A stretch of 64,000 bases of DNA from Acidobacteriota bacterium (GTDB lineage Bacteria; Acidobacteriota; Blastocatellia; RBC074). The DNA is taken from positions 1 to 64,000 of the forward strand of contig JACPYM010000069.1 in assembly GCA_016196035.1 (NCBI GenBank), read 5' to 3'. Positions 34,011 to 44,251 of this stretch are shown here, piece after piece (positions within the stretch are counted from its first letter, which is position 1; the number at the start of each line of letters is the position of its first letter). The position numbers and the translations under genes are program-made. A model generated the notes under the pieces. It saw only the letters and a program-made list of their open reading frames with translations, ran no database searches and was not told where the DNA came from.

Positions 34011-37000
34011 TTAAAACGTAAAGCGCAGCCCCGCTTGCAAAGTGCGCGCATCGTGCGCCTGCGTAGACTTGCCAAACGAAGCCAGCGAGAGATCGGCATT
34101 CGGCAAAAACAGATTGACATTGTTGAGCGCATTGAACGCTTCCAGCCGGATTTGCAATTGGCGTTCGCCCCACACGGTGAAGCTGCGCGCGACCGAAAGA
34201 TCGAGCGTCACCGCGCGCGGCCCGCGAAAGGTGTTGCGACCCAGCGTGCCGTTCTGGCCCAATGCGGGCGCAGGAAAAATGCCGGCGTCAAACAAGCCTT
34301 TCAGAAAATCGCGCTGGCTAAAGGAAGTCTTGAGCGTGCCGGGCGCGGGCGCATTCGGGCGATCATAGAACCAGCCGCCTACCGCGCCGCCACCGCCATC
34401 CAGATTGTAATCGCCGCCTGTGTTGCGGCCATTCACCAGATTGGACGGTGCGCCGTTCCAAACGGAAAACGGTCGGCCAGACTGGGCTGACAACACGCCG
34501 GACAGCAACCAGTCACGGCTCAACGCGCCCAACCAGCGCGGCGTTGTGTCAAAGATCATAGGCACAGCAGGCGTCCAACTTACGACGGTCGAAAGTCGCT
34601 GCGGAATATCGAACAACGAACGCGCCCGTTCACAACGCAAACACGCGGCGTCTTGCGCGCCTTTGCCCGGTTCGGAATTGTCGGTGAATTGGCCGGTCGA
34701 AGTGTCCGACGCCGTATCCAGCCATTTCGACCAGCGGTAATTCGTTTGCAGCGCGAAGCCGCCCAGGCGCGTCTGAGCAAAGGCGCGGCGCAGTTCCGCC
34801 GTGAAGGCGTGATAGCTGGACGTGACGCCATTCGTCACGAACAACAGCACGCCGAAATTCGGATTCAGGCGGTCTTCCTTGCCATCGGCCAGATCGCCCG
34901 CGAAACGGTTCACATCGTCAATGCGTTCGAGGTTGATGCCGTTGGTGCCGACGTAACCGGCTTCGACGATCCAGCCGCCCGCGAATTCGCGTTGCAGGTT
35001 CAGGAACCAGTTCTCGCTGTATTGCGTCTTGATCGTCGGGTTGACGACGAAGCCGGTGATGCGAATGGCGTTCTCACCGGCGGGCGTGTTGACGCCGCCT
35101 TTGGCGTTCAGGCCGCGCGCGAACTCGGCGTTAAACGGCACCGGGATGTTGTAAAGAATCTGCGTACCGATCTTGTTACTCGGTTGAATCACGCCTTGAA
35201 TCGCATCCGGCGGCAAGGCGCGCGCGCCCGCGATGGATTGGCCGTGATGCGGCTGAAAGGCCAGACTGAATCCGGCGCGAATCGCCGTCTTGCGGTTGCC
35301 AAACGGATCGTAAGCCAGCCCGATGCGCGGCGCGAAATTGCGGCGTTGCGGCGTATACAAACGGTCTACGCGGCCAAGCGCGGCGTTGGCAAGTCGTTCG
35401 TTAAAGTTGTTGCCGGTACCGAGAATAATCGAAGACAAGCGGCCTTCGCGTTCGGTCACATCGCCGAAGTAGTCGTAGCGCAAACCCAGATTCAGATTCA
35501 ACCGACCGGTCACTTTCCAATCGTTTTGGAAGAACGCGCCCGCTTCGTATTGCGTGAAGTAACGCGGAAAGCCCGCCGGTTTACCCGTCGCCGGATCAAC
35601 CGTGAGCGTCTGACGGAACGGGCGGTCGGCAACAAAGTCCGCGATGCTGCGAAAGCTGAATGCGCCTGCGGTCGCCGGGCCAAGCGAAAGCCCTTTGAAT
35701 GCGCGCCGCAATTCAAACCCGGCGCGCCACGTTTGTTTGCCGCGATCCAGCGTCAGCGTGTCGCGGATTTCGTAAGTGCGCAGCTTCGTGCGTGAATTGA
35801 AAATATCGCCGAAGGGCATCTCGATGCCCGTGATCGTGATGTCCGGCACGGCGGCGTCAGCATTGCCGCGTGTCGTGTCTACGTTTTGAAACGAGAAGCG
35901 CGCATCGTTGACGGCGCGTTGAAAGACGTGCACGTAGCCCAGATTCAAGTTGGCAAAGAAGCCGTCGAACGGCCCACGCGAACCGCGCAGCGCCTTGCCC
36001 AGCGTCGCGCGCGAAGAACTCGTGCCGCCCTGATCGCGCTGGTTTTCTGAAATCCAGCGCGCCGTCACTTTGTCCGCGCCGTTGTTGAAGCTGTGATCAA
36101 GCCGCGCCAGATACTGATCGAAGCGCACGTAATCGCGCAGCGTCGCCGCCGCCAGCGCAATCGCCGGGATGAAACCTTGCGCCGTGCTCAGACAGTTGCG
36201 CTGCTCCGCCACCGTCGCGCAACCCGTCGCCACGGGCGTGGGCGCGGGGAATTGTTTGAACAAACGCGCGGCGACGCCGGTAGGCGCGGTGCGAATGACG
36301 TAGTCGCGCAGTTGCGGCGTCTCGACCAAAAACGAAAGCGGACGCCCGACGGCGTTGCGCGTGCCTTCATACGAGCCGAAAAAGAAGGTGCGATTTTTGA
36401 AAACCGGGCCGCCCACGTTGCCGCCGAATTGATTGAAGACTTGCGGCAGCACTGCGGCGGAAAAGAAATTGCGCGCGTTGAGCGCGGCGTTGCGGTGGTA
36501 TTCCCAGAGCTTGCCGTGCAGTTGATTCGTGCCCGCTTTGGTTTGCAGATTGATGACCGCGCCGTTGCCGCGCCCATATTCGCTGGAAAAATTGCCGGTC
36601 TGCACCTGCACTTCTTCCAATGATTCGAGCGCGGGCACGAGCGTCGGTTCGCCGGTGTTGTTCGGATTGGTGTTGAGCGCGCCGTCGAGCACGTAGTTGT
36701 TGCCGCGATAACGATTGCCGTTGACCGTCACGACGGGCGAATTGGTCAGCTTGGTCGAATTGGCCGAGCCTAGAATTTGCGTCGCGCCCGCGCTGAGTTT
36801 CGGCAGCAGGAAGACATCGCGTTGCGGCAGCGGCAGCGTCGTGAGTTGCTGATTGGAAAAGTTGTCTGAAAGACGGCCTTCGGTGGCGACGACGGCTTCG
36901 GGTTTGGCGTTGATGGTGATGGCTTCGGCAAGGTCGCCGACTTCGAGTTTCAGCACCAGTTCCGTCGTTTGGCCGACGTTGAGTTTCAGCCCGCGCTGTT

Positions 37001-37286
37001 CATAGCTTTTGAACCCGGCGGCGCGCACCTGCACGGTATAAATGCCGGGCGGCAGGCCGGCCAGCAGAAAGCTGCCTTTGTTGTCAGTCGTCGCCGCGCG
37101 TTGCAACCCGGTCTGTTCGTGGGTGGCGGTCAGCGCGATTTGCACGAGCGCGTTGCCGGTGCTGTCGCTCACCGCGCCTTTGAGTGTCGCCTCGGTGAAT
37201 TGCGCGGCGGCGGATGCCGTGCAAAAGAGCAACACGCAGCACAGCGCGACAGCTTTGCAGGTTGGGGAAAGCTTTTGATGATTCAT
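34011..37286 (-). CDS. TonB-dependent receptor, Oar-like
   Basis: A 1091-residue outer-membrane receptor. A signal peptide (AVALCCVLLFCTASAAAQ) leads into a regulatory-like domain at ~30-115 (EATLKGAVSDSTGNALVQIA; FLLAGLPPGIYTVQVRAAGF). The plug follows (TINAKPEAVVATEGRLSDNF; PVVTVNGNRYRGNNYVLDGA) and then a barrel ending DARTLQAGLRFTF with terminal Phe. It is related to the receptors at 11910 and 17223 but has no LacI-type gene nearby. Its downstream edge is 10 bases from the MITE-like element at 33859. Substrate unknown. Confidence 0.87.
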   Translation of the reverse strand: MNHQKLSPTCKAVALCCVLLFCTASAAAQFTEATLKGAVSDSTGNALVQIALTATHEQTGLQRAATTDNKGSFLLAGLPPGIYTVQVRAAGFKSYEQRGLKLNVGQTTELVLKLEVGDLAEAITINAKPEAVVATEGRLSDNFSNQQLTTLPLPQRDVFLLPKLSAGATQILGSANSTKLTNSPVVTVNGNRYRGNNYVLDGALNTNPNNTGEPTLVPALESLEEVQVQTGNFSSEYGRGNGAVINLQTKAGTNQLHGKLWEYHRNAALNARNFFSAAVLPQVFNQFGGNVGGPVFKNRTFFFGSYEGTRNAVGRPLSFLVETPQLRDYVIRTAPTGVAARLFKQFPAPTPVATGCATVAEQRNCLSTAQGFIPAIALAAATLRDYVRFDQYLARLDHSFNNGADKVTARWISENQRDQGGTSSSRATLGKALRGSRGPFDGFFANLNLGYVHVFQRAVNDARFSFQNVDTTRGNADAAVPDITITGIEMPFGDIFNSRTKLRTYEIRDTLTLDRGKQTWRAGFELRRAFKGLSLGPATAGAFSFRSIADFVADRPFRQTLTVDPATGKPAGFPRYFTQYEAGAFFQNDWKVTGRLNLNLGLRYDYFGDVTEREGRLSSIILGTGNNFNERLANAALGRVDRLYTPQRRNFAPRIGLAYDPFGNRKTAIRAGFSLAFQPHHGQSIAGARALPPDAIQGVIQPSNKIGTQILYNIPVPFNAEFARGLNAKGGVNTPAGENAIRITGFVVNPTIKTQYSENWFLNLQREFAGGWIVEAGYVGTNGINLERIDDVNRFAGDLADGKEDRLNPNFGVLLFVTNGVTSSYHAFTAELRRAFAQTRLGGFALQTNYRWSKWLDTASDTSTGQFTDNSEPGKGAQDAACLRCERARSLFDIPQRLSTVVSWTPAVPMIFDTTPRWLGALSRDWLLSGVLSAQSGRPFSVWNGAPSNLVNGRNTGGDYNLDGGGGAVGGWFYDRPNAPAPGTLKTSFSQRDFLKGLFDAGIFPAPALGQNGTLGRNTFRGPRAVTLDLSVARSFTVWGERQLQIRLEAFNALNNVNLFLPNADLSLASFGKSTQAHDARTLQAGLRFTF

Positions 37287-37409: not shown

Positions 37410-38672
37410 CTAATTGCCCGCGCGTCCGCCGAGTGAATAGACCGTTGTCCGGGGGTGATAAAGCTGCCAGTCGAACCAGAAATCTTTGAGCAAGGCGACT
37501 GGTTTAAGTTTTTGTCCGGCGAGTTGACCGCTGATGGCCGCGCCGCTGAAATCCCAAGTGGAGCCGGTTTCGGCGTCTACAATTTGCAACGGGTTCGCCG
37601 CTGCTTTGACAAAAAATTCCAGCGTGCGCCCGTTGACGCTGCGCTCAAACACGCGGACGGATTGGTTGTCTTCGCCCACGATCAGAAAGAGCGGTACGCC
37701 GCCCAGTTCATCCAGCGTCAACCGTTGCTTGACCAAATCGGCCTGCGGATACGCCCTGCCCTTGCCATTCAATTCCAAGCCGACAATCAGCGTGCGTGGT
37801 TGCCAGGCGTCTTGCGGGTCGGCAGGCGTGACGACCCGCATACGTTGAATGCCTGCTTCCCAATCGGCTTTCTCATATCGCGCTTTGAACTTTTCGTCGG
37901 GCCGCAACACGCGCCCCTGCGGATGTTCGCGCTTCCAAACGGCGAACGAGATTTCGTCTACAAAAACCTGTTTGAGCTGTTTGCCTTTGAGTGGGCCGTG
38001 CAGGGCCGCCCCGCTGACCTGTTGCCACCAGGAATTGGTGGTTTCGTCGCGCATGATGAAGTTCTGGTTATTGATACCCGCCAGATGAAACTTCAGCGGC
38101 TGTCCGTCCACTTCGGCTTCCCACACCAGACCGGTGTGACAGAGCGTTCAGTACGTCGCGGTGATCGGCCTGCCACCGACGACATCGTTGACGACGTGGT
38201 GATAGGCCATCTGCCGCACCGGATAAGCCACGGCTTCCCCGTTGACCGCAATCGCCATCACCATGTCTTTGTCAGCCACAAAGTTGGCTTCGTCGGCGCG
38301 GGCATAAGCGACTGTCGAGAGGGGCGCGAACATCCATTCAAAATGGTTTTGCCGGGCAAACCAGGTGGCGACCAGCGCAGGCAGTAAAATCACCAGCAAA
38401 GCTAGCCTGCGAACCACGCCCGTGCGCGCCCGCCAGAGTGCAATGCTCACCCACAACGCCAGTGCGGTTGCCAGCGTCGTCACCCACGGCGCCCAGCTTT
38501 TCAAGGCATAAGAGACAGCCACGTTGCGGGCCGTTTGCGGGCGAAACGGTTGGATGTACCAAGCGGGCACGAAGACGAGCAGTACGGCGACGGCCACCAC
38601 GGCGAGCAAGAGCAGCCATTTGACGAAGGTGCGCGGGGCAACGATTTGATAGGCGCTTGGGGCGTTTTGCAT
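37410..38672 (-). CDS. DUF3179 membrane protein, probable selenoprotein (in-frame UGA as Sec)
   Basis: Read through the UGA at 38150-38148, this is a 420-residue protein with Sec at residue 175. Residues 18-40, 62-80 and 87-105 are three membrane helices. Two DUF3179-like halves follow. The first has the VNGEAVAYP / HHVVND entry and then TATY-U-TLCHTG, where relatives have YCxxC, so Sec replaces the first Cys of the redox pair. NFIMRDETTNSWWQQVSG follows. The second half repeats the fold (NGKGRAYP ... DAETGSTWDFSGAAISG) without Cys. Both sides of the UGA are in the same frame and fully family-like. A SECIS-like hairpin follows immediately. The start ATG 38672 has no clear ribosome site; TTG 38681 is possible. 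A nonsense mutation is the alternative, made unlikely by the hairpin. Confidence 0.85.
38122..38147 (-). promoter_or_regulatory. Bacterial SECIS-like hairpin directly after the UGA codon
   Basis: In the transcript, 15 bases after the UGA come CACACC, the loop GGUCU, and GGUGUG: a perfect 6-bp stem with a five-base loop. GGUCU is, from memory, the apical loop bound by SelB in E. coli fdhF. A lower GCU/AGC pairing across an internal loop is possible. The stem also codes for the conserved HTG-LVW residues, so part of its sequence is protein-constrained. Confidence 0.8.
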
Positions 38673-38746: not shown

Positions 38747-39385
38747 TCAAGGTTTATTGAGCGCGTAATTAAAAACAAACCTGCCAAGTAACATCGTCCC
38801 TTTGCCACCCACCGGCGGATTGATCAGCAAAGATCGAATCGGGCCACGCGCCGGTTGCAAATGTGCATTGACCAAGCCCAACGGCTTGCCTGTGGCAGCT
38901 TCAAAGAAACGCACTTCCAGCATCTCGCCATCCACCCGTTTGTAGCCAAAAACATATTCGCCAGCGGGCAGCGCAAGTTCGCCGACCCTGAGCGACGTTT
39001 GCGCGATGAAAAAGTGCGAGTACTTACCTTCGGCAGCGTAACCCGCCGTAATGATGACGACGCCGGCAATAAATTTGCCTTTGCCGTCGGTCACACCCGC
39101 CGCCGTGCGCAACTCGGTTTCGATCTGCTCTTTCTCAACCGGCGCGCGGGCGGGGATCAGCGCCGCCAGTTCTTTCTCGGTGGCAGCGCGCCATTTCGTT
39201 TGCGCGCGCGCGGTGCTGGCGGCGGCCAAGCTTAGAGCAAGGCAGCACAGGCACAGTAAGCAGCGTTGCAGCGTCAACTGTTTTTTCACGATGGCATTGA
39301 AAGCGAGAGTATTGGTGACGAACGCACGTAGCCTAGCATTGGCGCGCCCGGCTGTCTTGGGTCTGAAGATTGAATTTCGAGTCAT
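38747..39385 (-). CDS. Exported protein of unknown function
   Basis: A 212-residue protein whose hydrophobic signal (LLCLCCLALSLAAASTARAQ) starts about 40 residues in. A GTG at 39289 would give a normal-length signal peptide and may be the true start, but no ribosome site supports either. The mature domain (AALIPARAPVEKEQIETELR; GVVIITAGYAAEGKYSHFFI; LPAGEYVFGYKRVDGEMLEV; PVGGKGTMLLGRFVF) looks like a small beta-sandwich. I do not recognise the family. It is the nearest gene upstream of the DUF3179 selenoprotein on the same strand, with a 75-base gap, so the two may be co-transcribed. Confidence 0.6.
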   Translation of the reverse strand: MTRNSIFRPKTAGRANARLRAFVTNTLAFNAIVKKQLTLQRCLLCLCCLALSLAAASTARAQTKWRAATEKELAALIPARAPVEKEQIETELRTAAGVTDGKGKFIAGVVIITAGYAAEGKYSHFFIAQTSLRVGELALPAGEYVFGYKRVDGEMLEVRFFEAATGKPLGLVNAHLQPARGPIRSLLINPPVGGKGTMLLGRFVFNYALNKP

Positions 39386-40206: not shown

Positions 40207-40457
40207 TCTATAGACTTCAAGAAAAAGAATTTCCGTAGCCATCTCCAACGGAGCGTCAGCTAACAGCCTGGGGTGCAGCCCCAGGAAGCACATTGAGTCA
40301 TTGTGCGAAGCCCTGAAAGGGCGACAGCCAAGCCTATGGCTGTCGCCCTTTCGGGGCTGGCCGAACCATTTGCACGACTCCCCAGGGCTTCACCCTGGGC
40401 TTATGGCTGGTCGTCCCTTTGGGACTTTTCGGAAATTCTTTTTCTTAAAAACTATAG
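40207..40457. repeat. MITE-like element with terminal inverted repeats and nested palindromes
   Basis: Both ends carry CTATAG, five unpaired bases, then AAGAAAAAGAATTTCCG, exactly inverted (40219-40235 and 40430-40446). Inside are three hairpins: CCTGGGGTGCAGCCCCAGG at ~40268, a long one around GGGCGACAGCCA at 40310-40356, and CCCAGGGCTTCACCCTGGG at ~40381. It has no coding capacity. The right end covers the stop codon of the response-regulator gene. Confidence 0.82.
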
Positions 40458-41093
40458 GTGGACAATTCCCCGTTGTAACGCCGTCGTGGCAGCCTGGGTG
40501 CGGTCAGTGACGCCGAGTTTGCCGAGCAAGGAATTGATGTGCGATTTGACAGTGGCTTCGGAAATGGAAAGCGCGGTGGAAATTTCTTTGTTGCTGCGGC
40601 CTTTGACGATCAGTTCCAGCACCTGCAACTCGCGCCCCGTCAATTCCTGCCCGGCCATGCGTTCGGCCAAGCGTTCGGCCACGGCGGCGGGGATGCGCCG
40701 TGCCCCCGCGTGCACCGTGCGGATGGCGGCGAGCAATTCATCAAAGGACATGCCCTTGAGCAAATAGCTTTGCGCGCCGGCCTGCAACGCGCGGTAAATA
40801 TCTTCGTCGCCGTCGTAGGTCGTCAGCACAATGATTTTGGCCGCAGGGGATTCCCGCCGGATGGCACGGGTCGCTTCGACGCCGCCCATTTCGGGCAAGC
40901 GCAAATCCATCAGCGTGATGTCCGGGCTGTGTTGGCGGAATAACTCAACGGCCTGCCGCCCATTCTCAGCCTCGGCGACGACATTCAGATCGGGTTCGGT
41001 ATTGATGAGCGCGACCAAGCCTTTGCGGACGATTTGATGATCGTCCACAACCATGACGCGAATGGGTTGCGCGGAATTTGTTTCCATAAGCAT
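40452..41093 (-). CDS. NarL/FixJ-type two-component response regulator
   Basis: A 213-residue transcription factor. The receiver (residues ~10-130) has VMVVDDHQIVRKG, the phospho-acceptor D63 in ITLMDLRLPEMGG, the Thr in IIVLTTYDGDED, and the Lys in YLLKGMSFDEL. The C-terminal LuxR helix-turn-helix (~150-210) reads LTGRELQVLELIVKGRSNKE ... ISEATVKSHINSLLGKLGV. It follows the propeller kinase gene by 60 bases, so it is the cognate regulator. The last codons overlap the terminal repeat of the 40207 element. Start is ATG 41093 or 41087. Confidence 0.93.
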   Translation of the reverse strand: MLMETNSAQPIRVMVVDDHQIVRKGLVALINTEPDLNVVAEAENGRQAVELFRQHSPDITLMDLRLPEMGGVEATRAIRRESPAAKIIVLTTYDGDEDIYRALQAGAQSYLLKGMSFDELLAAIRTVHAGARRIPAAVAERLAERMAGQELTGRELQVLELIVKGRSNKEISTALSISEATVKSHINSLLGKLGVTDRTQAATTALQRGIVHL

Positions 41094-41115
41094 TCTTCGT
41101 AACTACTCGCCATTC

Positions 41116-41151
41116 CCTGGGAGCGCGGGCATCCCTGCCCGCGCTCCCAGG
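41116..41151. repeat. Perfect 16-bp hairpin between kinase and regulator genes
   Basis: CCTGGGAGCGCGGGCA and its exact complement flank TCCC. The hairpin shares its core with the ends of the 33859 element. It lies in the kinase-regulator spacer, two bases past the kinase stop, and could lower regulator expression relative to kinase. Confidence 0.85.
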
Positions 41152-41152
41152 A

Positions 41153-44100
41153 TTATCCGTTAAGCGGCACTTCGACAATCACCTCTGTGCCTTCATTCGG
41201 CTGGCTCTTCAACTCAAATCCCCCTCCCAATTGTTCGACACGTTCGCGGATGCCGACCAAGCCGAAATGGCCGTTGGGGCTGCCCAATTTCGTGGCGACC
41301 TCGAAGCCACAGCCGTTATCGCGCACGCTGAAGCGCAACCGGCGCGCTTCAAACTCGAGTTGCAAATTCAATTGCGTGGCGCCCGCGTGTTTGAGCGCAT
41401 TGGTCATTGCTTCCTGTCCGATACGCAACAGTTGGTCTTCGACGGCAGGACTCAGCGGGCGATAGGCACCGTGCACTTCGACATGCGCTTGTACGTTGGT
41501 GCCCGCGACCAGGCGTTTGGCGGTTTCAGCCAGCGCGGCGGGCAAGTCGCTGCCCTCAAGTGTCGGCGAACGCAAATCCCAGACAGAGCGGCGCGCTTCG
41601 GCCAGACTCGCGCGCGCCAGTTCGCGGGCCTGATCAAGCTGTGTTTTGGCCGCCGCCGGGGCGCGTTCCAGCAAGCGCGCCACCAATTCGAGTTGCACCG
41701 AAAGCCCCGCGAAACTCTGCGCCAACGTGTCGTGAATCTCGCGGGCGATGCGTGTGCGCTCGGCCAGTACGGCGGCGAATTCGCGTTCAACACGGCGGAC
41801 GCGCGTGCGGTTCCAAGCGAAGACAAAGGCGACGAGGCTCAGCAAACACAGGCCATAAAACCAATAGGTGCGATAGAAATGCGGCTTCAGGTAAAACTCG
41901 AACGCCGCGCCCGTTTCGTTCCAGACACCGTCATTGTTGCAAGCCAGCACGCGGAAGCGGTAATGCCCGGCGGGCACGTTGGTATACGACGCCAGCCGCC
42001 GCGTCCCGGCGTCAATCCAAGCGGGATCGAAGCCTTCCAGCTTGTAGCTGAACTTGACCTGCTGCGGCGCGGCGAAACTCAACCCAGCGTAGTAAAACTC
42101 AAAGCGCGTTTGTCCCGGCGGCAAGACCAGCGGCGCGCCAGGATAAAACACGGCGTCATCCACGCTGACCTGTTCGATGGCGACCGGCGGCGGTTGATCG
42201 TTGATCACTAGCTGGGCGGGATCAATTGCCGCGACGCCTTTGAGCGTGGCAAACCAGAGCCGTCCGTCGCGCGTCCTGGCCCCTGCCGGATGCCCACCGC
42301 CGCTGCATTCGCGCGTTTCCAGGCCGTCGGCGGTGCCGTAACTCACTACAGGCAACGGCTGCGTTTCGTTTGGTTGGCGCGTTTCCAACGCCTGGCGGCT
42401 GACGCGCATGACGCCTTTGTTGGAACTCAGCCAGAGCTGGCCCTGGCCATCTTCCAGAATCTGATAGATCACGTCATCGGCCAAGCCGTCTTTGACGGTG
42501 AAGTGCGTGAACCGGCCCTCTTTGAACAGGTTCAAACCGCCGCCGTGCGTCCCGATCCACAGATTGCCCGGCGCGTCTTCGTAAAGCGCGATCACGACCT
42601 CGCTCGACAGCCCTGTAGCAGTCGTATAGTTGGTGAACTGGCCGTCTTTGAAACGGCTCAAGCCGCCCAAGGTGCCGATCCACAAGCTGCCATCGCGGCT
42701 TTCGCAGAGCGCGCCGACCAGATCATTCGCCAGGCCGTCGAGCATCGTATACGCCGTGAATTGGCCGTTCTGCCAGCGCGTCAGGCCGCGCCGCGTGCCG
42801 ATCCACAAATTGCCCGCGCGGTCTGCGTACAGCGAACGGATGTAATCGTCCGCCAAGCCATCGCGCACAGTGAATGTGGTAAAGCGGCCTTGGCGAAACC
42901 GCTGCAAGCCCTGCGGTGTGCCGATCCAGAGATTGCCCGCGCGATCATCGCAAAGCGCCAACACGTCATTGCTGGCCAAGCCGTCTTTGGTCGTGAACGC
43001 CGTCCAGCGTCCATCTTTCAACCGGTTCAAACCTTCCTGCGTGCCGACCCAGAGATGGCCCGCGCGGTCTTCGAAAACGGCCCTGACCAAATTGGCCGAC
43101 AGGCCCTGGCGTGTGGTGTGGGTAGTGAACTTTTTGTGCTTGATCAGATTCAGACCGCCCGCTTCGGTGCCCACCCACAAACTGCCCTCGCGGTCTTCAA
43201 AAAGCGCCAGCACCAGATTGCTCGAAAGCCCCTCGCGTTCGGTGAAGGTGGTCAAGACGCCGTCTTGCCAGTGCGCCAAGCCGCCGCGTGTGCCAATCCA
43301 AAGTCCGCCCTGTTTATCTTCCTGCAACGCTTCGACACGCTTGTCGGGCAAGCCCTGGCGCGTGGTGAAGCTCTGAAACTTGCCGTCATACCATTGTTGC
43401 AATCCGCCGGGCGTGCCGAACCACAGCCGCCCCGCCTGGTCTTGCGCGATGACCGTGACGCTGTTGTGCGCCAACCCCGCGCGCGTGGTGAAGCTCTGAA
43501 ATTTGCCGTTGCTCCAGACCGACAAACCCTCCGGCGTGCCGATCCACAGGCGGCCCTGTTGATCTTCAAAGAGCGTCTTGATCGTTGATCCGGCCAAACC
43601 CTCCGGCGTGCCAAAGCGCGTGAAAGTGCCGTCTTTGAAGCGGTTCAATCCATCCAGCGTGCCGATCCAAAGCGCGCCGCTGCGGTCTGCCAGCAAGGTC
43701 TCGATGCTGTTGTGCGACAACCCATCGCGCGTCGTGAAGGCCGTAAACTGGCCCTCGCGATAACGGTTCAACCCATTCGGCGTGGCAATCCAGAGGCTGC
43801 CCGCGCGGTCTTCATACACCGACCAGATGTTGTTACTCGACAATCCGTCCCGCGTGGTAAAGGGTTGGAAATGGCCGTTGGCATACAACACCAACCCGCC
43901 CGGCGTGCTGATCCACAGGCGTCCGGCGCGGTCTTCAAACAGCCCGCGAATCTGGTTATGCGGCAGTTGCGGCGTGTTCTGTTTGTCGAAGACCACAAAG
44001 CGCAGCCCGTCAAAACGCGCCAACCCTTCCTTGGTACCGAGCCAGAGGTAACCAGCGCGTGTTTGCAAGATGGCCTGCACAGTGTTTTGCGGCAAGCCCT

Positions 44101-44251
44101 GTTCGGTCTGCCAACTCGCCAGGCCGAATTGTGCGGGGGCTTGCGGCTGGCTTTGCGCACGCACCGGCGTCCACACAATTTGGCCGCGCTGCGCCAAACC
44201 GGCGAGCACCAGGGTGAGTGCGCAGAGCATGACGGGACGCAGACGCGGCAT
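41153..44251 (-). CDS. Two-component propeller sensor histidine kinase, 14 repeats
   Basis: A 1032-residue membrane sensor. A signal/anchor (MLCALTLVLAGLAQ) is followed by 14 tandem propeller repeats of the form GLSSNNIWSVYEDRAGSLWI, ~40 residues each, enough for two seven-bladed propellers in the periplasm. A Y_Y_Y domain follows (FSYKLEGFDPAWIDAGTRRL; NVPAGHYRFRVLACNNDGVW). Then come one TM helix (WFYGLCLLSLVAFVFAW), a HisKA_3 box with H~840 in IAREIHDTLAQSFAG, and an HATPase_c domain (IGQEAMTNALKHAG; RDNGCGFE; GHFGLVGIRERV). The layout matches glycan-sensing hybrid systems of Bacteroidetes, but here the regulator is a separate NarL protein encoded just downstream. Confidence 0.92.
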   Translation of the reverse strand: MPRLRPVMLCALTLVLAGLAQRGQIVWTPVRAQSQPQAPAQFGLASWQTEQGLPQNTVQAILQTRAGYLWLGTKEGLARFDGLRFVVFDKQNTPQLPHNQIRGLFEDRAGRLWISTPGGLVLYANGHFQPFTTRDGLSSNNIWSVYEDRAGSLWIATPNGLNRYREGQFTAFTTRDGLSHNSIETLLADRSGALWIGTLDGLNRFKDGTFTRFGTPEGLAGSTIKTLFEDQQGRLWIGTPEGLSVWSNGKFQSFTTRAGLAHNSVTVIAQDQAGRLWFGTPGGLQQWYDGKFQSFTTRQGLPDKRVEALQEDKQGGLWIGTRGGLAHWQDGVLTTFTEREGLSSNLVLALFEDREGSLWVGTEAGGLNLIKHKKFTTHTTRQGLSANLVRAVFEDRAGHLWVGTQEGLNRLKDGRWTAFTTKDGLASNDVLALCDDRAGNLWIGTPQGLQRFRQGRFTTFTVRDGLADDYIRSLYADRAGNLWIGTRRGLTRWQNGQFTAYTMLDGLANDLVGALCESRDGSLWIGTLGGLSRFKDGQFTNYTTATGLSSEVVIALYEDAPGNLWIGTHGGGLNLFKEGRFTHFTVKDGLADDVIYQILEDGQGQLWLSSNKGVMRVSRQALETRQPNETQPLPVVSYGTADGLETRECSGGGHPAGARTRDGRLWFATLKGVAAIDPAQLVINDQPPPVAIEQVSVDDAVFYPGAPLVLPPGQTRFEFYYAGLSFAAPQQVKFSYKLEGFDPAWIDAGTRRLASYTNVPAGHYRFRVLACNNDGVWNETGAAFEFYLKPHFYRTYWFYGLCLLSLVAFVFAWNRTRVRRVEREFAAVLAERTRIAREIHDTLAQSFAGLSVQLELVARLLERAPAAAKTQLDQARELARASLAEARRSVWDLRSPTLEGSDLPAALAETAKRLVAGTNVQAHVEVHGAYRPLSPAVEDQLLRIGQEAMTNALKHAGATQLNLQLEFEARRLRFSVRDNGCGFEVATKLGSPNGHFGLVGIRERVEQLGGGFELKSQPNEGTEVIVEVPLNG

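Follow-up and report, generated by a model that had tools for sequence, protein, structure and literature searches.

The window, by which we mean the whole stretch of 64,000 nucleotides analyzed here, comes from an Acidobacteriota genome (9.59 Mb, 96.9% complete) and carries a DUF3179 gene on its minus strand. The gene is a single 420-aa frame (38672-37410), running from an ATG at 38672 to a TAG at 37412-37410 and interrupted only by a UGA at 38150-38148 (codon 175, the sole in-frame TGA). The original prediction held that the halves flanking this UGA share one frame, which they do (junction TATY-U-TLCHTG), and that the gene has no indel or other damage; accordingly, the frame is open on both sides and broken by the UGA alone. 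The protein matches PF11376 (DUF3179) over residues 122-409 with E 1.7e-67 and 228.3 bits, against a gathering cut-off of 27, covering profile positions 11-292 of 292. Standard-code ORF lists split the gene in two at the UGA. With the window protein as query, its own genome gave one DUF3179 match. The main features of the gene are as follows:

37410..38672, minus strand: coding sequence of the candidate DUF3179 selenoprotein; 420 aa, Sec at codon 175, TAG stop; PF11376, E 1.7e-67
38148..38150, minus strand: candidate UGA Sec codon 175, which opens the UxxC (U175-T-L-C178); from the frame and the aligned loci
38121..38139, minus strand: putative SECIS hairpin, CACACC-GGUCU-GGUGUG, with the loop GGUCU at 38128-38132, beginning 15 nt past the UGA; from codon conservation and pairing

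Three neighbouring regions, all on the minus strand, were also annotated. Just upstream lies a 212-aa protein (38747-39385) with no Pfam match at E 0.001; further on, a response regulator adjoins a large propeller-type histidine kinase with Reg_prop, Y_Y_Y and HisKA_3 domains (40452-44251). Directly downstream, an outer membrane protein resembling TonB-dependent receptors bears a CarboxypepD_reg domain (34011-37286). We found no tRNA inside the window, nor any Rfam match at the gathering score.

The caution that the idea might be old at the family level was justified, since two reviews already tabulate DUF3179 as a selenoprotein family, with the motif UxxC/T (PMC9312934, PMC13188914); PMC9312934 cites Zhang and Gladyshev 2007 for it. 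An early survey counted three selenoprotein families in Acidobacteria (PMC1794560). The window protein belongs to the same Pfam family as the tabulated proteins and has Sec first in the same UxxC; its clade has three predicted N-terminal transmembrane (TM) helices. In the main texts of the two reviews, neither acidobacteri* nor Rieske occurs.

Sec and Cys at codon 175

Homologues of the window protein were found at E 1e-10 or better in 129 of the 396 genomes searched from the phylum. We aligned 89 loci from Acidobacteriota (the window gene plus 29 and 59 further loci) and found U at the codon-175 column in 43 and Cys in 46, with no third state. In loci from GTDB contigs (the best 80 of 123 relatives), the same column had U in 70 and Cys in 10; the 89-locus and 80-locus sets share some genomes, and as the set L110-L189 overlaps the set L022-L051, the two counts are not independent. 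UGA thus takes the place of the first Cys of the DUF3179 CxxC, as had been proposed. Within the matched stretch of the 89 loci, other UGAs were found only 239-242 residues further on, at the end of the stretch. Viral contigs gave 38 pattern matches, and no relative is encoded in any of them.

Standard-code ORFs do end or start at the UGA, as they would if it were a real stop separating two ORFs, in a decaying pseudogene or through an assembly error. However, the UGA recurs at one column in 43/89 and 70/80 loci and is flanked there by open frame, the codons right after it are the most conserved in the gene, and the Cys forms read through the same column. Because the UGA recurs at a single column and alternates there with Cys, neither sequencing error nor a pseudogene explains it, and we regard a real stop as extremely improbable.

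The second Cys of the motif (Cys178) is missing in 11 of the 43 Sec forms versus 2 of the 46 Cys forms (Fisher 0.006, a value that ignores kinship). The 11 Sec forms concerned read UPLA, UPLV, UPID or UPLT (L074, L075, L081-L084, L099, L101, L102, L107 and L109). That Cys178 is lost more commonly in Sec forms fits a Sec able to act alone.

A search of the source genome for selA, selB, selD and tRNA-Sec, the check put forward with the original prediction, returned all four. The tRNA-Sec scored 66.9 bits and is called tRNA-SeC with anticodon tca by ARAGORN; SelA scored 582.2 bits, SelB 363.7 bits and SelD 362.1 bits. SelD is itself apparently a selenoprotein, with an in-frame UGA in the context NCAGUASK (L020:1492-2430, UGA at 1531-1533, contig G000:C88). 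Adjoining the tRNA-Sec is a gene for a peroxiredoxin-like lipoprotein, also with an in-frame UGA (RGYFUTGC; L002:847-1485, contig G000:C60). NCBIfam matches of this protein all fell below the cut-off (best 54.4 bits against 140), and the 35-nt fold 3' of its UGA is unremarkable (z -0.88); it is likely a further selenoprotein. Counting the DUF3179 gene, SelD and this lipoprotein, the source genome has at least three candidate Sec genes.

A conserved hairpin downstream of the UGA

A SECIS-type stem-loop is found just 3' of the UGA of the window gene; the best fold of the 53-nt stretch is a different one. The loop of the stem-loop, GGUCU, is that of E. coli fdhF. In the membrane clade, that is, the relatives with three predicted TM helices, the 18 nt encoding residues 179-184 are CACACCGGTCTGGTGTGG in 62/71 Sec forms and 0/10 Cys forms; for the first locus set, the exact 18-mer occurred in 18/21 Sec and 0/10 Cys forms. 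Among the 79 conserved-residue columns of the 71 Sec forms, codon choice varies least at six, residues 176 and 179-183, with top codon frequencies of 0.92-1.0 versus a gene median of 0.59. The Gly181 codon is GGT in 65/71 Sec forms versus 0/10 Cys forms (Fisher 4e-9). The hairpin sequence of the membrane clade was found in none of 22 Sec forms from other DUF3179 branches.

The 7-bp hairpin is 97.7% paired, versus 28-54% in slid controls. Both sides changed in two pairs; such double changes are few (2/7 pairs). Of five covariation measures, one does not exceed shuffles (364/500), and the remaining measures are inflated by related rows. Among individual loci, L119 has CCATAC/GTATGG instead of CCACAC/GTGTGG, L151 and L154 keep the hairpin core despite an altered Trp codon, and L186 has two hairpin pairs broken. 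Folded freely, the 53 nt from the UGA are not unusually stable (z 0.18) and their best structure differs from the hairpin; the 21-nt hairpin alone is mildly stable (z -1.8 to -2.0). Near-frozen at synonymous sites in Sec membrane forms and relaxed in the Cys ones, the hairpin appears to behave as expected of a SECIS. We propose that SelB and Sec-tRNA(Sec) would be recruited by this hairpin, 15 nt downstream, and would decode UGA 175 as Sec.

Duplication, predicted membrane anchor and predicted fold

The AlphaFold2 model of the window protein (mean pLDDT 94.2, pTM 0.90) consists of three helices followed by a beta domain. Its predicted parts, all on the minus strand, are:

38556..38636, minus strand: predicted TM helix 1, residues 13-39; AlphaFold2 model, hydropathy 1.84
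38430..38531, minus strand: predicted TM helix 2, residues 48-81; AlphaFold2 model, mean hydropathy only 0.8 over 34 residues
38355..38417, minus strand: predicted TM helix 3, residues 86-106; AlphaFold2 model, preceded by a positive loop
37887..38315, minus strand: repeat 1, residues 120-262, with a predicted Rieske-like fold at 144-243, bearing U175/C178; from the models and hhalign
37437..37820, minus strand: repeat 2, residues 285-412, with a predicted Rieske-like fold at about 300-399 and no CxxC; from the models and hhalign

Across 81 rows, the loop joining helices 2 and 3 has a mean of 3.77 K+R and 0.07 D+E, a positive charge which suggests that the C-terminal domain is periplasmic. The internal duplication is clear in the 89-locus alignment, where hhalign matches the two repeats to each other (Prob 99.9, E 5e-31). 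A membrane-anchored, duplicated form had been put forward as possibly new: the three TM helices are indeed predicted and the duplication is real, but it is common to the 89 loci and not special to this protein. In repeat 2 of the membrane clade, Cys occurs at residues 378 and 388, both in 52 of 81 rows and never singly; this pair, which is absent from the window protein, probably forms a disulfide or serves as a second redox pair.

Structure comparison pointed consistently to one fold. For the whole model, all 50 listed VIA-align matches were of the Rieske fold (by title or family), covering residues 144-243 or about 300-399. The best had Z 8.6 (rmsd 3.1, 96 residues), 5cxm had Z 8.4 (rmsd 2.4, 92 residues) and, with repeat 1 modelled alone (pLDDT 95.0, pTM 0.88), all 50 listed matches were again Rieske, up to Z 8.5 (3gce, rmsd 2.9, 94 residues); as Z values of this size are near the level reachable by unrelated models, the argument is carried by the consistency of the match lists. 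Foldseek placed Rieske ferredoxins at the top for repeat 1, at probability 1.00 and with no E below 0.001; 48 of the 50 listed matches were Rieske, and the two others had probabilities of 0.08 and 0.05. Its list for the whole model was mixed: matches at a probability of 0.72 or above were Rieske, many unrelated ones had low probability, and none had E below 0.001. No thioredoxin-fold protein was among the matches listed by Foldseek or VIA-align, an absence from lists that does not exclude that fold. A sequence search of solved structures gave a best E of 0.43 with the protein and no match with the profile.

We also compared profiles with those of 30 Rieske domains. Repeat 2 matched with Prob 78 and score 32.5 (40 column shuffles reached at most 17.0, the reversed profile 10.1), and both repeats combined with Prob 42 and score 26.9 over 40 columns (shuffles at most 13.5). 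The membrane-clade repeat 2 gave Prob 13, global mode was weak, and repeat 1 (Prob 1.4, score 16.0) fell within its shuffles (at most 18.4).

Both repeats being Rieske-like, and UTLCHTG resembling CPxHG by eye, one could read the protein as a true Rieske [2Fe-2S] protein in which Sec is a cluster ligand at box II. Yet the ligand pattern C.H...C..H is present in 0/89 DUF3179 domains versus 30/30 Rieske domains, no Cys occurs at repeat-1 columns 183-216 in any of the 89 rows, and the register from the repeat-2 profile puts the U175 position on the hairpin before box I, away from box II. We consider a true Rieske protein very unlikely, and the profile register and the missing ligands led us to reject Sec175 as a replacement of the box II Cys. 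With Rieske-like models and absent ligands, a Rieske-like fold is likely and a Rieske protein is not: each DUF3179 repeat likely resembles, in its model, the fold of Rieske-type ferredoxins and domains (3gce, 3dqy and 5cxm, Z 7.5-8.5). The DUF3179 domain differs from them in lacking the CxH/CxxH ligands of the [2Fe-2S] cluster, in its tandem arrangement and in carrying UxxC on a different hairpin. Such a fold would give DUF3179, a family of unknown function, its first structural identity. In the literature searched, 'domain of unknown function' nowhere appears together with both Rieske and selenoprotein. What is new here is this fold prediction, together with the clear Sec-to-Cys history described below; the selenoprotein status of the family was already known.

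Proposed redox role and history of the Sec form

We conclude that the window gene is very probably a genuine selenoprotein gene, with UGA 175 decoded through SelB, three TM helices, a periplasmic tandem Rieske-like domain and a Sec175/Cys178 redox pair. The 420-aa product would be held by its three predicted N-terminal TM helices, with the C-terminal domain predicted to be periplasmic; this domain is a tandem repeat, and the predicted fold of each half is a Rieske-like beta structure that lacks the iron-sulfur ligands. Lying on a beta-hairpin in repeat 1, Sec175 and Cys178 would most likely cycle between the selenol/thiol and selenenylsulfide states. The likeliest function, judging from the motif and the Sec/Cys exchange, is thus that of a periplasmic selenol/thiol redox protein.

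No conserved partner was found in the gene neighbourhood (ORFs of at least 90 aa within about 4 kb, 80 loci), so it is the motif that points to a redox role. The best neighbour cluster, in 14/80 loci, is presumably a pilus-assembly-like protein. Pfam searches of ten relatives revealed no fused known domain, with one further match below its cut-off. NCBIfam has no family for the window protein, and gave weak hits (best E 0.00022), which we disregarded, in one or two of the 76 members of alignment A2; this alignment excluded 5 of 80 loci whose match stopped before query residue 400 (alignments A4 and A1 comprise 47 of 81 rows and 25 rows, respectively).

The Cys forms of the membrane clade read CTLCH, which is the CxxCH motif of a heme c protein, and a table line on DUF3179 in a genome paper (PMC9230427) groups a DUF3179 protein of Idiomarina with cytochromes and other proteins, at the cytoplasmic membrane. 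Nevertheless, the first position is Sec in 43/89 loci, the second Cys is absent in 11 Sec forms, and the position following the second Cys holds H in just 43/89 (G in 27, N in 9, Y in 4, R in 3 and S in 3). With U at the first Cys in 43/89 and H179 in 43/89, a CxxCH with conserved Cys and His is not what the family has, and a heme c protein is exceedingly improbable. A metal chaperone or sensor domain, in which Sec175, Cys178 and His158 would be metal ligands and not a redox pair, is a more serious alternative: His158 is kept in 82/89 loci and could complete a Cys/Sec/His site, and the fold neighbours are metalloproteins. Cys178, however, is absent in 11/43 Sec versus 2/46 Cys forms, a pattern better matched by a Sec nucleophile acting alone than by a pair of ligands, and we consider metal binding rather unlikely.

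We built a tree from 91 rows, 73 with Sec and 18 with Cys, keeping the Sec/Cys column with both residues coded as C; it requires two changes. Identical or contained rows were omitted, as were rows shorter than 340 aa in the L110-L189 set and shorter than 300 aa in the earlier one, from which only L022-L053 were taken. Sixteen Cys rows, from Edaphobacter and relatives, form one clade (support 100/100) nested among Sec rows; the two other Cys rows belong to the long-branched outgroup (rows L052 and L053), which leaves the root less certain than the nesting. By this topology, Sec looks ancestral in the three-helix membrane clade, with reversion to Cys in the subclade of Edaphobacter and relatives. 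The Cys-form membrane proteins of Edaphobacter (L132, L141, L142 and L181) share the architecture of the window protein at 41-42% identity, but have Cys (TGC) at the codon and do not keep the hairpin sequence.

Sec and its machinery were lost together. Among genomes with the membrane form, SelA and SelB were each over the cut-off in 20/20 with Sec and 0/10 with Cys (SelB had sub-cut-off matches in 6 of the 10), and tRNA-Sec was found in 19/20 and 0/10, respectively; residual hits in G215, a genome 88% complete, and in G130 are tRNA-Ser according to ARAGORN. SelA was searched in 78 of the 129 genomes with a match, and SelB and tRNA-Sec in 32 of those 78. Over the 78 genomes, SelA was present in 38 of the 40 that have a Sec form versus 25 of the 38 with only Cys forms. 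The two exceptions among Sec-form genomes, G317 and G046, both have tRNA-Sec, and G046 also SelB.

A wider proposal, to which we give even weight for and against, is that DUF3179 may be an unrecognised branch of the Rieske superfold, with tandem cluster-free domains in which the cluster is replaced by a Sec/Cys redox pair that sits on a different hairpin; its membrane-tethered periplasmic version in Acidobacteriota would be ancestrally Sec, becoming Cys only upon loss of Sec decoding. The 20 Sec genomes with SelA and the 10 Cys genomes without it constitute a natural experiment, in which the question of why cells pay for Sec can be tested on one protein pair.
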